The notes under the pieces: model-generated
What the model was told of the DNA's origin: nothing
Seen by the model: only the letters and a program-made list of their open reading frames with translations
The model's database searches: none
From: Rhodohalobacter sp. 614A
GTDB taxonomy: Bacteria > Bacteroidota > Rhodothermia > Balneolales > Balneolaceae
Direction of reading: 5' to 3'
Assembly (NCBI RefSeq): GCF_021462415.1
Contig: NZ_JAKEDS010000002.1
Location: 496,001-560,000, forward strand
Length of the DNA stretch: 64,000 nt
Shown here: positions 41,954-48,272 of the stretch, one piece after another
How positions within the stretch are numbered: position 1 is the stretch's first letter
Layout: each line of letters begins with the position of its first letter
Translations under genes and position numbers: made by a program

Positions 41954-43756
41954 TTGGACTCCTTTAAAAAGCTTAATCGGTATTTGAAAAAGTACAGGGG
42001 AATTATTCTTCTTGGTGCTCTTTTTCTAACCGGATCCAATTTTTTCCTTATCTGGATTCCAGTGCTCATCCGGCGCACGATGGACCGTGTTGAGCAGTTA
42101 GGAACCGATCAGGGTGGGCAGTACGAATCAATGATGGACATTCTCTTCTCGAGCGAAGCCGGAGAAATTCTTGCGTTCAATTCATTGCTGTTGGTGGGGA
42201 CAGTACTTTTATATGGAATTCTTCTCTTTGCAACGCGGCAAACGCTGATTGTCAGTTCCCGAAAAATTGAATTTGATATTCGAAACCGGGTTATGGACAA
42301 ATTGTTGGTCTTACCTCAAAGATACTTTGCATCCAATACCTCTGGTGAAATTTATGTGAGAGCTACCGAAGATATTGCCAGGGTTCGTGAATATTTTGGT
42401 CCGGTTCTGATGTACACCATCAATACATTTACCCGCGCAGGATTTATCATCTCCATGATGATTATCGTAAATCCGACTCTCACGTTTTGGGCTCTTGTAC
42501 CGCTACCGTTTCTTTCAGCATTTGCCTATTGGGTGAGCGGTTTTATCAATAAATACCAGGTAATTATCCAGGAACAGTATTCCAGAATAGCCGGCAAAGC
42601 AAACGAAACGTTCAGCAGTATTCGTCTGATTAAAGCGTATAACCGGCAAGAGTATGAGCAGAAAAAGTTTGAAGCCGAAAGTGAGGACTATCGAAAGAAA
42701 AAACTTCGGCTGGATCTGGTTGAATCTCTGTTTCATCCCACACTGAATCTCCTGATTGGTGTATCGGTGGTGATTGTAGTTTGGAAAGGTGGAGTGATGG
42801 TGATTGATGATCAGATTACGGTTGGAAATATTGCCGAATTTGTGATTTACGTAGCTTACTTAACCTGGCCGGTTGCGGCATTGGGATATACGGTAAATAC
42901 ACTTCAGAAATCACTGGCTTCCTGGGAACGCATCAATAACATGCTGAGTGAACCGATTGAAATTCGCGACAAAAACAGGGAATCAGGTTCAGTTTCTTCT
43001 GAAATGAAAGGGGAAATAGAATTCAGAAATGTAAGCTTCAGATACCCAGGATCTGAAGAGTTTGCTATCAGAAATATTAACATGAAGATTCCGGCCGGAA
43101 GCAACATCGCCATTGTTGGAAGAACGGGGGCAGGAAAAACATCGTTAGTTAATTTAATTCCGCGTCTTTTCGATCCTACGGAAGGAGATATTTTTATAGA
43201 TGGTGTAAATGTAAAAAATTGGAATTTGGCTGATTTAAGAAAGTCAATTGGTTATGTTCCTCAAGAAACATTTCTCTTTTCTACAACTATTAAAGAGAAT
43301 ATTGCATTTGGCGTAGAAGATGCTTCCATGGAACAGGTTGAAGAGGCGGCAGACAGCGCACAGGTGCTTGATAATATTTTGGATTTTGAGAAAAAATTTG
43401 AGACACTTGTTGGAGAAAGAGGAATCACTCTTTCAGGCGGACAAAAACAGAGAACTGCTATTGCCAGGGCTATAATAAAAAAACCTGGAATTGTTATATT
43501 CGATGATTCGCTAAGCGCCGTCGATACAAAGACAGAAGATGCTATTTTAGAGCATCTGCGGGTGAAATTGGCACATGTCACAACTATCATGATATCACAC
43601 CGAATATCTACAGTTAAAAACGCTGATACAATTTTTTATATTCAGGAAGGTTCGATTGTAGAATCAGGTACCCATGATGAATTAATAGAAGTCGAAGGAC
43701 GTTACTTTGACATGTACCGAAAACAATTACTTGAACAAGAATTGGCTCAAATATAA
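41954..43756 (+). CDS. ABC exporter half with degenerate catalytic site (YheI/BmrC-like)
   Basis: A 600-residue inner-membrane half-transporter: six transmembrane helices (about 15-315) then an ATPase domain. Walker A VGRTGAGKTS and signature LSGGQ (493-497) are canonical, but Walker B reads IVIFDDSLSAVD with Asp518 where the catalytic Glu belongs. That FDDSLSAVD wording is typical of the degenerate subunit of heterodimeric multidrug exporters. The start is TTG at 41954; it places the first helix normally. The partner subunit is encoded 1.3 kb downstream, after ribonuclease Z. Substrate unknown, perhaps drugs or lipids. Confidence 0.88.
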   Translation: MDSFKKLNRYLKKYRGIILLGALFLTGSNFFLIWIPVLIRRTMDRVEQLGTDQGGQYESMMDILFSSEAGEILAFNSLLLVGTVLLYGILLFATRQTLIVSSRKIEFDIRNRVMDKLLVLPQRYFASNTSGEIYVRATEDIARVREYFGPVLMYTINTFTRAGFIISMMIIVNPTLTFWALVPLPFLSAFAYWVSGFINKYQVIIQEQYSRIAGKANETFSSIRLIKAYNRQEYEQKKFEAESEDYRKKKLRLDLVESLFHPTLNLLIGVSVVIVVWKGGVMVIDDQITVGNIAEFVIYVAYLTWPVAALGYTVNTLQKSLASWERINNMLSEPIEIRDKNRESGSVSSEMKGEIEFRNVSFRYPGSEEFAIRNINMKIPAGSNIAIVGRTGAGKTSLVNLIPRLFDPTEGDIFIDGVNVKNWNLADLRKSIGYVPQETFLFSTTIKENIAFGVEDASMEQVEEAADSAQVLDNILDFEKKFETLVGERGITLSGGQKQRTAIARAIIKKPGIVIFDDSLSAVDTKTEDAILEHLRVKLAHVTTIMISHRISTVKNADTIFYIQEGSIVESGTHDELIEVEGRYFDMYRKQLLEQELAQI

Positions 43757-43820: not shown

Positions 43821-45053
43821 ATGATTATTGTACCCTTAGGTGTTGCCTCAGCAACGCCAACTGCAACCAGACACTTGCCATCTGTTGCCCTGTGGAGAGA
43901 AGGAGATGTTCATCTTTTCGATTGCGGGGAAAATGCTCAAATGCGGATGTTGCAAGCAGGACTTAAACGGTCTAAGATTGAAAATATCTTCATATCCCAT
44001 TTCGATGTCGATCACTTTTCGGGAATCATAGGATTGCTTTCCACACTGCAATTGCAGCGCCGGGAAAAAGCACTGAATATTATTGGTCCGAAAGGAATGA
44101 AGGAATATGTGGAATGGAACCTCAAATTTGCGAAAGTAGATCTTAATTTTGAGATTAATTTTGTAGAAATAGAAGAAGGTTTTGAAGGAGAAAAAGTGGT
44201 TGATGAAGATGAGTACTATGTGGAGGCTCGTCCGTTAAATCATTCAAAATTTTGTATAGGTTATCGCTTTCAGGAAAAAGATCGTCCCGGAAAGGTTGAC
44301 GCTGAAAAAGCGGAAGCGATGGGAATTACAGAAGATGCTCAATACAAAGCTCTGAAATCCGGCGAAGACGTTGAGTTGGAAGACGGCACGGTTATAAAAT
44401 CGTATGATATTGTTGGTCATCCGCGACCGGGCGACAGTTTTGCTTATGTAACGGATACAAAATATCATCCAAATTCTGTGAAGCTGGCGATGAATACAAA
44501 CATTTTGTATCACGAAGCTACTTTTAGTGAAACGCTGGCTGATAAAGCGGCAGAAACCGGCCATTCAACATCGGCAGATGCAGCCCGTGTTGCCAATGAA
44601 GCTCAAACAAAACTTCTGGTTATCGGACATTTTTCAGCTCGATATACAAACCCTTTTGTCTTGTTGCGAGAGGCACGGGAAAAATTCTTCCCTGCGTGGC
44701 TGGCTACTGAACTCCGCCCGATTTATACGAATCCATCCCAGGAAAAAGGAATCGTACAGCAGAAGGTTTATTTGAAAGAAGCGAACGACAGTTCTGGCAG
44801 CAGCAGTAGTAGTGGCGGCGACAAGAAAAAAAGGAGTAGCTTCAAAAAATATGACAAGAGCAATAAGCGTTTCAGAAAACGTAAAAGTTCTTCATCAGAC
44901 AGAAACCGAAAGACACGAAGCGACTCTAACGAACGCAGACGCAAGCGTCCCGAAAGAAGCAGGAGTGACAGTCATGACACGAACAAAGGGTCGTCACGAG
45001 CTCCGAAACACATTACGCCAAGAACACCTTTCGATAATTTTGACCGCTTCTAA
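43821..45053 (+). CDS. rnz: Ribonuclease Z with altered HxH motif and long basic tail
   Basis: A 410-residue metallo-beta-lactamase-fold nuclease that removes 3' trailers from tRNA precursors. The usual HxHxDH motif reads HFDVDH (residues 60-65), so the second histidine is Asp62. The other ligands look normal: His in RPLNHSKFCIGY, Asp in YVTDTKYHPN, and His in VIGHFSARYTNP, and GHSTSADAARVA is conserved. The enzyme core ends near 320 against a usual length near 305. A 90-residue tail (about 321-410), rich in Ser, Lys and Arg, follows and looks disordered and RNA-binding. The gene lies between two ABC half-transporter genes; a GGAG sequence precedes ATG 43821 by 9-10 bases. Confidence 0.9.
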   Translation: MIIVPLGVASATPTATRHLPSVALWREGDVHLFDCGENAQMRMLQAGLKRSKIENIFISHFDVDHFSGIIGLLSTLQLQRREKALNIIGPKGMKEYVEWNLKFAKVDLNFEINFVEIEEGFEGEKVVDEDEYYVEARPLNHSKFCIGYRFQEKDRPGKVDAEKAEAMGITEDAQYKALKSGEDVELEDGTVIKSYDIVGHPRPGDSFAYVTDTKYHPNSVKLAMNTNILYHEATFSETLADKAAETGHSTSADAARVANEAQTKLLVIGHFSARYTNPFVLLREAREKFFPAWLATELRPIYTNPSQEKGIVQQKVYLKEANDSSGSSSSSGGDKKKRSSFKKYDKSNKRFRKRKSSSSDRNRKTRSDSNERRRKRPERSRSDSHDTNKGSSRAPKHITPRTPFDNFDRF

Positions 45054-45066
45054 TTTGTAACGCGTT

Positions 45067-46854
45067 TTGAGATCTAAAAGTGAAACGAAAGCCGTCGATT
45101 CTATATTGATTCGACGGCTTTACTACTTCTTTAAGCCTTATCGATGGTGGGCTATTCTGGCAATCGTACTTACCTTGTCAGCAGCTTACCTGGGAACCGT
45201 TCAACCAAAACTGACACAGATTGCCGTTGACGAACACATCACCAATGGGGATGTTGACGGGTTGATGTGGATCATTTTATTGATTGTTTGTGCGCTGGTT
45301 GGTGAATTCCTGATTCTTATTCTGAATACCTACATCACCCGTTGGTTTGGACAAGGTGTTTTATATCGGTTGAGGAACGCAGTATTCGAGAAAATTCAAT
45401 CGCTCCACGTACAGTTTTTTGATAAAAATCCTATTGGGAGATTAATTACCCGAACCACCAGTGATATTGAAGCACTCAGCGAGCTTCTGTCCGATGGAAT
45501 AGTGAATATGATCGGAGATCTGTTCAGAATCTTCTTTATTCTTTATTTCATGCTTACCATGAGCTGGGAATTGACCATTGTCTCCATTCTGGTTCTTCCG
45601 GTTCTGTTTTATGCAACTTTCTGGTTTAAAGGAAAAGTTCGCATCGCATATCTTGAAGTAAGAGACCAGATTGCACGGCTGAATTCCTTTGTACAAGAGC
45701 ATATCAATGGAATGTCAGTTGTACAACTCTTTAACCGTGAGAAGAAAGAGAAGCAAAAATTTATTGATATCAATGCAGATCACAGGAAAGCTCACATTTC
45801 TACAATCTTTTACTTCTCCATATTCTGGCCGGTGATTGAGGTTCTTGCCAGCCTCGCCATGGCCCTGGTGGTTTGGTATGGAGGCGCACGGGCTTTGATG
45901 GGGGACGTGACGTTTGGGGTGCTCCTGGCTTTTATTCAATATGTGCGCCAGTTCTTTAACCCGATCAGAGGTCTCTCTGAAAAGTACAATACACTTCAAT
46001 CTGCGTTGGCTTCCTCCGAACGGATTTTCAATGTTCTTGATACTCCAAAGAAAATTGCTGAACCGGATCAAGAAACCTCGATCAAGGATTTCAAGGGAGA
46101 AATTGAATTTCAGGATGTTTCTTTCCGATATAATGAAGACGAAGAACTGATTATAGACGATGTGTCTTTTAATGTGAAACCCGGTGAACTACTCGCAATT
46201 GTGGGTGCAACCGGTGCAGGAAAAACAACCATCATAAATTTGTTGCTCAGATTTTATGATATCCAGAAAGGAAAAATTCTTTTGGATGGAACAAATATTC
46301 GAGATCTGTCTCTTAAAGATTTACGGTCCCAGTTTGCACTCGTTCTTCAGGACAATGCCCTTTTTTCAGGAAGTGTTTTAGAGAACATTACTTTGGGGCA
46401 TGAAGAAATTACACGAGAACAGGTAATAGAAGCAGCAAAAGAAGTGGAAGCGCATCAGTTTATAAAAAAATTACCGGGTACGTATGATTTCGTACTTAGA
46501 GAGCGTGGTGCTTCGTTATCTATGGGACAAAGGCAATTGATTTGTTTTGTACGAGCTATGGTTTATGATCCAAAAATTTTAATCCTTGATGAAGCCACTT
46601 CCAGTGTTGATTCCGAAACCGAAGAGCTTGTTTCCCGTGCCTGTAAAAAGATGATGCAAGGCAGAACATCCATTGTTATTGCTCACAGATTATCGACAAT
46701 TCAAGGTGCAGACAAGATCTTGGTTATGCATAAAGGACAAATTCGGGAAACGGGAAATCATCATCAATTGATACAAAAAGAAGGTGGAATTTACAGGAAA
46801 TTATATGAGTTACAGTATAGAGATCAGGCTATTAACTCAAACACAATTGCTTGA
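45067..46854 (+). CDS. ABC exporter half with competent ATPase site (YheH/BmrD-like)
   Basis: A 595-residue half-transporter with six transmembrane helices (about 15-330) and an ATPase domain. Walker A VGATGAGKTT and Walker B ILILDEATSSVD with catalytic Glu509 are intact, but the signature is LSMGQ (484-488). With the LSGGQ of the 41954 gene this subunit completes one working ATP site, leaving a second degenerate site: the arrangement seen in TM287/288 and BmrC/BmrD. TTG at 45067 is the start and lies 13 bases after the ribonuclease Z stop, so one transcript seems likely. Confidence 0.9.
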   Translation: MRSKSETKAVDSILIRRLYYFFKPYRWWAILAIVLTLSAAYLGTVQPKLTQIAVDEHITNGDVDGLMWIILLIVCALVGEFLILILNTYITRWFGQGVLYRLRNAVFEKIQSLHVQFFDKNPIGRLITRTTSDIEALSELLSDGIVNMIGDLFRIFFILYFMLTMSWELTIVSILVLPVLFYATFWFKGKVRIAYLEVRDQIARLNSFVQEHINGMSVVQLFNREKKEKQKFIDINADHRKAHISTIFYFSIFWPVIEVLASLAMALVVWYGGARALMGDVTFGVLLAFIQYVRQFFNPIRGLSEKYNTLQSALASSERIFNVLDTPKKIAEPDQETSIKDFKGEIEFQDVSFRYNEDEELIIDDVSFNVKPGELLAIVGATGAGKTTIINLLLRFYDIQKGKILLDGTNIRDLSLKDLRSQFALVLQDNALFSGSVLENITLGHEEITREQVIEAAKEVEAHQFIKKLPGTYDFVLRERGASLSMGQRQLICFVRAMVYDPKILILDEATSSVDSETEELVSRACKKMMQGRTSIVIAHRLSTIQGADKILVMHKGQIRETGNHHQLIQKEGGIYRKLYELQYRDQAINSNTIA

Positions 46855-47146: not shown

Positions 47147-48272
47147 ATGAACCCAATACAATTTGATAAAGTTGAAGACCTCTTTGAGCGCCTGGATGCG
47201 CTCAGGGGGTATCTTTGACTACGATAAGCGCAAAGTTCGAATTATAGAATTACAGGAACAAACCCAGGATCCCAATTTCTGGAATAACCCAGATAAAGCT
47301 CAGCAGGTGATGCGAGAGCTTGATTTCGAAAAGGAAATCACCGGGAAATGGGATAACCTCAATGATCTTCGGGAAAGCATTAAGGTTTACAAACAGTTCC
47401 TGGATGAAGGTGAAGATGTAACCGATGAAATTCAGGCGGAGGTTTCTGACTTCAAAGAGAAGCTGAAAGACCTCGAGCTTCAAAATATGCTCAGTGGTGA
47501 CGATGATCACCGAAATGCAATTGTTACGTTCAATCCCGGAGCAGGCGGAACCGAAAGCCAGGACTGGGGGGTGATGCTCTTCCGAATGTTTTCTCGCTGG
47601 GCCGAGAAAAAAGGACATGATGTTTCGGTAGTTGAATACCAGGATGGCGATGTGGCCGGACTAAAAAGTGCTACACTCGAAGTAAAGGGGCCGAACGCTT
47701 ACGGATATCTTAAATCGGAAAGTGGCGTTCATCGTTTGGTACGGATTTCTCCTTTCGATAGCAACTCGCGGCGACATACTTCGTTTTGCTCGGTTTTTGT
47801 TTCACCCATAATAGACGATACGATTGAAGTGAATCTGAATGATTCGGATATCGAACTTCAGCGATTCCATGCCAGTGGTGCAGGCGGACAAAATGTGAAC
47901 AAGGTAGAAACCGGTGTTCGTCTTATCTGGACGGGCAAGCTCTCGGATGGAACCGAAGAACGGGTTGTTGCTGAATGCCAGCAAGAGCGATCTCAACTTC
48001 AGAATCGTGAGAAGGCAATGGTTTTGTTGAAATCGAAAGTGTACGAGCTGGAAAAGAATATCAAAGAAAGAGAACAGCAGAAACTTGAGGATTCAAAAAG
48101 CAGTAATGAATGGGGATCTCAAATCCGGTCATATGTTTTTCACCCTTATAATATGGTGAAAGATCACCGGACCAATCACGAAACCGGCGATGTGCAGGGA
48201 GTGATGGACGGCGATCTCGACGAGTTTATGAAAGCTTACCTGATGATGAGTGCCGCGGCAGTTTCATCATGA
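47147..48272 (+). CDS. prfB: Peptide chain release factor 2 with programmed +1 frameshift
   Basis: A 374-residue class-I release factor for UGA and UAA stops. Translation starts at ATG 47147, reads 23 codons ending ...LRGYL at CTT (47213-47215), meets an in-frame TGA (47216-47218), and shifts +1 by skipping T47216 to continue at GAC 47217 to the stop at 48272. The product has the SPF codon-recognition motif (RISPFDSN) and the peptidyl-hydrolysis GGQ in GAGGQNVNKVETG. The coordinates span the whole joined frame; the uninterrupted frame starting at 47163 is only part of it. coaE overlaps its stop by 4 bases. Confidence 0.96.
47204..47219 (+). other. Programmed +1 ribosomal frameshift site of prfB
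   Basis: The sequence AGGGGGTATCTTTGAC matches the classic prfB shift site: an internal Shine-Dalgarno AGGGGG, three bases, the slippery CTT, then the stop TGA followed by C. Low RF2 slows termination at the TGA and favours the +1 slip, giving autoregulation. Seen directly in the sequence. Confidence 0.95.

Follow-up and report, generated by a model that had tools for sequence, protein, structure and literature searches.

A ribonuclease Z with aspartate in place of the second motif II histidine, shared across the order Balneolales

The window analysed here, a stretch of 64,000 nucleotides from the genome of Rhodohalobacter sp. 614A (NZ_JAKEDS010000002.1, positions 496,001 to 560,000), carries a gene for ribonuclease Z, rnz, whose product departs from the usual metal-ligand set at a single residue (Table 1). 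The gene is flanked by two same-strand ABC exporter genes, at 41954-43756 and 45067-46854, named by eye from their translations. Further along, at 47147-48272, lies prfB, likewise identified by its translation as release factor 2; it contains the classical programmed frameshift site, AGG GGG TAT CTT TGA C, at 47204-47219, and its upstream frame starts at 47147 and ends in ALRGYL-stop.

Table 1. Features of the rnz locus, in coordinates of the window
Feature	Positions	Strand	Remark
rnz, ribonuclease Z, 410 aa, ATG start	43821..45053	+	sole RNase Z found in the genome
Asn38 codon AAT (FDCGEN for FDCGEG)	43932..43934	+	second fixed order-specific change
Motif II HFDVDH (H60-F-D62-V-D64-H65), codons CAT TTC GAT GTC GAT CAC	43998..44015	+	
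Asp62 codon GAT	44004..44006	+	replaces second metal-binding His, by alignment
His141, motif III ligand	44241..44243	+	kept
Asp212, motif IV ligand	44454..44456	+	kept
His248 of HST motif	44562..44564	+	kept
His270, motif V ligand	44628..44630	+	kept
Basic S/R/K-rich C-terminal linker	44796..45011	+	low model confidence, likely disordered
Conserved C-terminal peptide ITPRTPFDNFDRF	45012..45050	+	

Family membership of the product is evident from several comparisons. It scores 313.4 bits on the curated profile TIGR02651 (RNase_Z), passing the cut-off of 292.95, and falls below that of the Thermotoga-type model TIGR02650 (30.3 bits, cut-off 507.05). Pairwise alignment pairs its residues 4-291 with B. 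subtilis RNase Z and 3-293 with E. coli RNase Z. Its AlphaFold model, which contains no metals, is of high pLDDT in the core, and Foldseek returns as best PDB matches 2fk6 (TMt 0.90) and 4gcw (TMt 0.91), both complexes of B. subtilis RNase Z with tRNA, as well as 2cbn. Furthermore, residues ~150-200, which we take to be the place of the tRNA-binding arm in RNase Z, align gap-free to the B. subtilis enzyme, so that the Foldseek matches and the alignment of this region together give an RNase Z fold with tRNA-binding arm.

Motif II sets the protein apart. HxHxDH is given as a shared signature (PMC10340364), and the motif residues of RNase Z are called invariant in another paper, with pseudo-histidine motifs mentioned in long forms (PMC2942849). 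In the window, motif II reads HFDVDH, with D62 aligning to the second His of HxHxDH in both the B. subtilis and the E. coli enzyme; judged by its sequence, the protein is a variant RNase Z and not a canonical one, accepted by TIGR02651 and lacking HxHxDH. Re-reading the codons confirmed what the earlier note on this DNA had described for motif II, and its statement that the other ligands are normal held as well, with H60, D64, H65, H141, D212, H248 and H270 all kept. Motifs III (H141), IV (D212) and V (H270) are accompanied by the HEAT glutamate E232 and the HST histidine H248. In an alignment of 180 rows, some of them duplicates, the columns of the other ligands contain gaps from cut loci but no substitution; the HEAT glutamate is Asp in two outgroups there.

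The earlier note had proposed comparing rnz across related genomes, and this comparison showed Asp62 to be an order-wide trait, something beyond the means of a reader of the one sequence, as were the second fixed change, N38, and the conservation of the C-terminal peptide. A class-wide DNA-pattern search (D[any]GE, 22 residues, HxDxDH; the canonical pattern was run likewise) covered 244 Rhodothermia genomes, namely 128 of Balneolales (28 of the same genus, Rhodohalobacter sp. 614A included, 64 other members of the family and 36 other members of the order) and 116 from the rest of the class. The HxDxDH pattern matches in 121 genomes, 120 of which belong to Balneolales (120/128); the remaining match, in a non-Balneolales genome (G524), does not read as RNase Z, leaving this pattern at an RNase Z in 0 of the 116 non-Balneolales genomes searched. 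The eight Balneolales genomes without a match (G022, G443, G446, G051, G055, G461, G466 and G469) have completeness values of 51-89%. Conversely, the canonical HxHxDH pattern occurs in none of the 128 Balneolales genomes and in 60 of the 116 others, or about 59 once the match of G249, which lies off its RNase Z, is subtracted; about 57 of these 116 fit neither pattern at an RNase Z. All 30 outgroups that were individually read (10 from the class, 20 from the phylum) have the second His.

Within the order, the first 30 loci (the window's own and 29 of its genus or family) read H[FL]D[VMTI]DH in 29 cases, and the alignment places Asp in the thirtieth (L013). All alignment rows other than L071-L080 carry Asp at position 62, and among nonredundant Balneolales rows it is Asp in 115/115, one of 85 invariant positions. 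The codon itself varies, being GAT in 79 and GAC in 27 of 106 distinct Balneolales DNA stretches. The residues around it vary too, with HFDVDH in 73 of 136 rows, HLDGDH in 28, HFDTDH and HMDGDH in 11 each, HFDMDH in 7, HFDIDH in 4 and HLDVDH in 2. The Gly forms (HxDGDH) are seen in Balneolales families other than that of the window, which suggests that the change from Gly to Val beside Asp62 probably arose later, in the window's family. Two cases of a double match were noticed: a metagenome-assembled genome that is 88% complete (G467) has two Asp-type RNase Z matches, on contigs C150 and C277, which may reflect two strains binned together, and the isolate of L136 and L167 likewise has two Asp-type RNase Zs on two contigs, perhaps again two strains in one bin.

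With this distribution, the possibility that the earlier note had itself regarded as fatal, a sequencing error in the codon, falls away, the Asp recurring in so many Balneolales genomes. Error or a decayed second copy would be the most trivial account of the residue, and we found no point in its favour; in an overlapping second collection (below), 97 of 109 scan matches are again of the Balneolales type with Asp, and the copy in the genome of the window is single and intact. This account is already refuted for the order, and its probability is negligible. The same residue being fixed across an order, Asp62 is beyond chance, and the window's protein is, on these alignments, a known enzyme in a variant form that is real and extends through the order.

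A maximum-likelihood tree was computed with column 62 masked from 68 rows (37 Balneolales, mostly random picks, 27 His-type and 4 others). The 37 Balneolales rows form one clade (100/99) adjoining the ten His-type rows of the class. A single Balneolales branch having fixed Asp62, its order-wide presence counts as one event. The second motif II His would have been replaced by Asp in the ancestor of Balneolales, and Asp62 looks like an inherited, kept change of a whole order.

One origin on one branch also suffices for a more modest explanation, in which Asp62 is merely tolerated and no metal retuning took place: the protein would have stayed a Zn RNase Z, whose first site is perhaps weaker. Drift would have fixed Asp a single time, or Asn38 would have compensated for it, with epistasis keeping it in place. 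Compared with the 27 His-type rows, residues 1-300 contain two clear order-specific fixed changes, D62 and N38, the latter (GEG to GEN) fixed alongside Asp in 114 of the 115 nonredundant Balneolales rows, as compensation would have it; five milder changes, at positions 159, 197, 253, 267 and 277, passed the same filter. Against mere tolerance stands position 62 itself, which in 115/115 rows has neither reverted to His nor taken up any third residue, though synonymous codons vary. A further argument against it comes from RNase Zs of other lineages that carry Asp, described next, all of which have Gly38. Taken together, we regard mere tolerance as rather unlikely, if a serious contender.

The pattern DCGE, 22 residues, Hx[DE]xDH was scanned for in 84,980 species genomes, a collection that overlaps in species with the 244-genome class search; the result is a lower bound, only DCGE and one spacing being detected. 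The scan returned 109 stretches: 97 RNase Zs of the Balneolales type, 4 RNase Zs of other lineages and 8 of something else. The 97 all read FD[CA]GE[NS]; some are titled Chitinophagaceae, Osedax symbiont or Rhodothermaceae and were assigned to the Balneolales type by sequence. The four from other lineages (L083, L125, L141 and L169) come from Clostridium psychrophilum (HGDADH) and three DPANN archaea, namely two Woesearchaeota (HWDGDH) and one Diapherotrites (HMDGDH). Three of them exceed the TIGR02651 cut-off, and L083 exceeds that of NF000801 only. They are 296-302 aa long, without basic tail, and retain Gly38, so Asn38 is not required for Asp, nor are tail and Asp62 bound together generally. 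In the tree these four lie on one side of a branch, separate from Balneolales; the tree was built without His-type archaea or clostridia, L083 has a very long branch and long-branch joins are flagged, so the four may stand for one Asp gain or for several. The other eight stretches were set aside after translation: seven (L096, L100, L109, L119, L123, L142 and L173) as chance matches and one, L092, as a Woesearchaeota protein with HPDSDHAGG that, judged by eye, resembles a ComEC-type metallo-beta-lactamase (MBL) domain. A phage origin was also considered and rejected, the HxDxDH pattern having 0 matches in viral_contigs.

A second canonical RNase Z, which the earlier note had held to be incompatible with its reading, did not turn up: a protein search of the genome (E up to 10) gives one match, rnz itself, and a TIGR02651 profile search (E up to 10) gives ten, one of which is above the cut-off. 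Of the nine matches below it, L331 and L335 were looked into, seven weaker places lying beyond them. L331, the next best (37.7 bits; L335 is a second stretch of the same protein), carries HEHMDH and was rejected as a candidate, most resembling MBL hydrolases of the PRK02113/GPMC type at scores below their cut-offs (GPMC 248.2 of 360 bits, PRK02113 237 of 386). The genome has 43 tRNA matches; 30 of these were read with their flanks, and in 27 the discriminator is not followed by CCA. A homologue of the CCA-adding enzyme is present. As far as RNase Z and CCA addition were surveyed, these findings, together with the lack of a further RNase Z match above the cut-off, lead us to expect that this genome depends on an RNase Z-type cut.

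These observations weigh against a further explanation, in which pre-tRNA cleavage has been lost and the protein has another role, such as RNA binding or protein phosphodiesterase activity, with other nucleases trimming tRNA. One ligand is, after all, changed. Moreover, RNase Z has a second published activity, deAMPylation, as reported in PMC12663964, and the order-specific tail and C-terminal peptide described below hint at a further role. Yet the remaining catalytic residues are kept, no second RNase Z, the one 3' trimming enzyme searched for, was found in the genome, and most tRNA genes read there are CCA-less; we consider loss of cleavage very unlikely. The Asp-type enzyme would rather still remove tRNA 3' trailers before CCA addition, as its RNase Z family, the CCA-less tRNA genes and the missing second copy lead us to infer. 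In what we see as the best explanation, rnz is probably the housekeeping ribonuclease Z of a Balneolales bacterium, with activity deduced from sequence. A point against it is the tRNA complex 2fk6, an inactive mutant with Ala at the position of Asp62, which shows that activity may suffer from substitution at this site. The suggestion of the earlier note that the site may be retuned rather than dead gains support from the order-wide fixation of Asp, the unchanged other ligands, the single RNase Z found and the mostly CCA-less tRNA genes.

A connection between Asp62 and the tRNA substrates was also tried. Cytidines after the discriminator are reported to suppress RNase Z (PMC7479834). Thirty tRNA genes were read in each of four class genomes (G000, G043, G075 and G364, their tRNA totals being 43 twice, 44 and 47), of which two are Asp-type and two are His-type; the base directly after the discriminator is C in 120/120, and CCA is encoded in just 11/120. 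The connection was rejected, C standing in 30/30 tRNAs of each Asp-type and each His-type genome.

The Balneolales enzyme shares with bacterial RNase Z (TIGR02651; B. subtilis 1y44/2fk6/4gcw, E. coli 2cbn) the whole catalytic domain, the other ligands, the HEAT and HST motifs and the fold, and differs in having Asp at the second His of motif II, Asn at the Gly that follows DCGE and an added basic tail of 74-222 aa with a conserved end. In its two-metal site, the first metal would now be held by H60, D62, H141 and D212, formerly three His and one Asp, the assignment of ligands to each metal following the solved structures of RNase Z. This set of two His and two carboxylates would be flavodiiron-like, with Asp for Glu, the Asp being shared with ComEC nuclease domains; it should weaken the preference for Zn to the benefit of a harder metal such as Mn(II), or Fe(II).

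Precedents for this come from several sides. The C-terminal metallo-beta-lactamase domain of ComEC, of the same fold superfamily, has HxDxDH in motif II and cleaves phosphodiesters (PMC8579336, PMC12455585). For example, one domain from Moorella thermoacetica is described as stabilised by Mn, not Zn, and active with Mn and less so with Co (PMC8579336), and a second Moorella domain, with H598-X-D600-X-D602-H603, binds two Mn and is an Mn-dependent nuclease (PMC12455585). ComEC is, however, not an RNase Z, acts on DNA and has Asn for the motif III His (PMC8579336), so its Mn need, measured there and not in the Balneolales enzyme, may not stem from Asp alone; the window's protein has no membrane competence domain among its family matches and keeps His141 in motif III. 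The change of D600 to Ala is reported to cost about 5-fold, the mildest among metal-ligand changes (PMC12455585), which also lends something to the view of a tolerated Asp62. Flavodiiron proteins, with the ligand series His, Glu, Asp, His, His, Asp, His, have an acidic residue at the second motif II position and an otherwise equal ligand order, but it is Glu, not Asp, in a redox diiron enzyme with a flavodoxin domain (PMC6033852). The Thermotoga maritima type of tRNase Z (TIGR02650; 1ww1, 2e7y) is a weak sequence and fold match with a separate family model, for which Mn effects are reported (PMC7479834). Mn is said there, citing others, to stimulate several RNase Zs and to rescue catalytic mutants of the T. 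maritima enzyme. According to the same source, crystals of bacterial RNase Zs show Zn, although it is Co, Mn or Mg that stimulates these enzymes and added Zn does not, so Mn use by the Asp-type would not be special.

By analogy with these systems, we infer that D62 is a metal ligand of the window's RNase Z, and a metal change appears the most likely meaning of Asp62. A first site favouring Mn or Fe is what the ComEC, flavodiiron and RNase Z metal precedents would suggest. We therefore favour, as moderately probable, the view that the RNase Z is active and that its first metal site, in which a carboxylate now takes the place of one His, would prefer Mn (or Fe) over Zn, the metal being assigned by analogy with ComEC and flavodiiron proteins. 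Motif II histidines are treated as invariant Zn ligands of RNase Z (for example in PMC2942849), and one of them is replaced order-wide in Balneolales and in a few other lineages, in an enzyme that seems to stay needed despite the ligand swap. Asp62 of Balneolales may thus serve as a natural experiment on the determinants of metal choice among nucleases of the metallo-beta-lactamase type, in an order with cultured members (Rhodohalobacter, Fodinibius, Gracilimonas and Balneola strains are among the scan matches). In open-licence literature (CC0/CC BY/CC BY-SA), titles and beginnings of abstracts yielded no Asp-type RNase Z variant, and no paper joins Balneola and RNase Z; HxDxDH as a written motif was found in one paper, on a putative lactonase.

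The second distinctive trait of these enzymes is their C-terminal end. Balneolales RNase Zs consist of the catalytic domain up to about residue 325, a basic linker and a conserved end (ITPRTPFDNFDRF in the window). Past residue 325, the 98 Balneolales rows that reach a stop have another 74-222 aa (median 93), whose net charge is +10 to +39 in 98/98, compared with 0-11 aa past this residue for the 27 rows of the His type; the remaining 17 of the 115 Balneolales rows run beyond the fetched piece. An ending [DN]R[FL] is common to all 98 stop-reaching rows, and the longer motif ITPR..[FY]D.[FY][DN]RF fits 92 of the 115. AlphaFold gives residues 316-410 low confidence and draws a helix at 405-409. 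With the end conserved and the linker before it changing fast, the end may be a docking peptide, and it would offer a second handle on a possible organisation of tRNA 3' processing in Balneolales. More tentatively still, and with real doubt, both traits may be joined: the order would have moved an essential tRNA-maturation enzyme from Zn to a dinuclear centre of Mn (or Fe) through a single change of His to Asp, Asn38 serving as its second-shell partner, and the same branch would have gained the disordered basic tail and the fixed docking peptide, tying RNase Z to RNA or another partner.

A search for the end peptide in 19 genomes of the family found 19 places in 18 of them and none in G082. 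Sixteen of the 19 lie at or beside the RNase Z end, and one (G443) was not placed. The idea of a general signal carried by other proteins as well was rejected, the two places elsewhere (G034 at 1289356 and G000 at 405201, the latter with an in-frame stop) looking like chance; a backward control of the pattern gave one match (G101).
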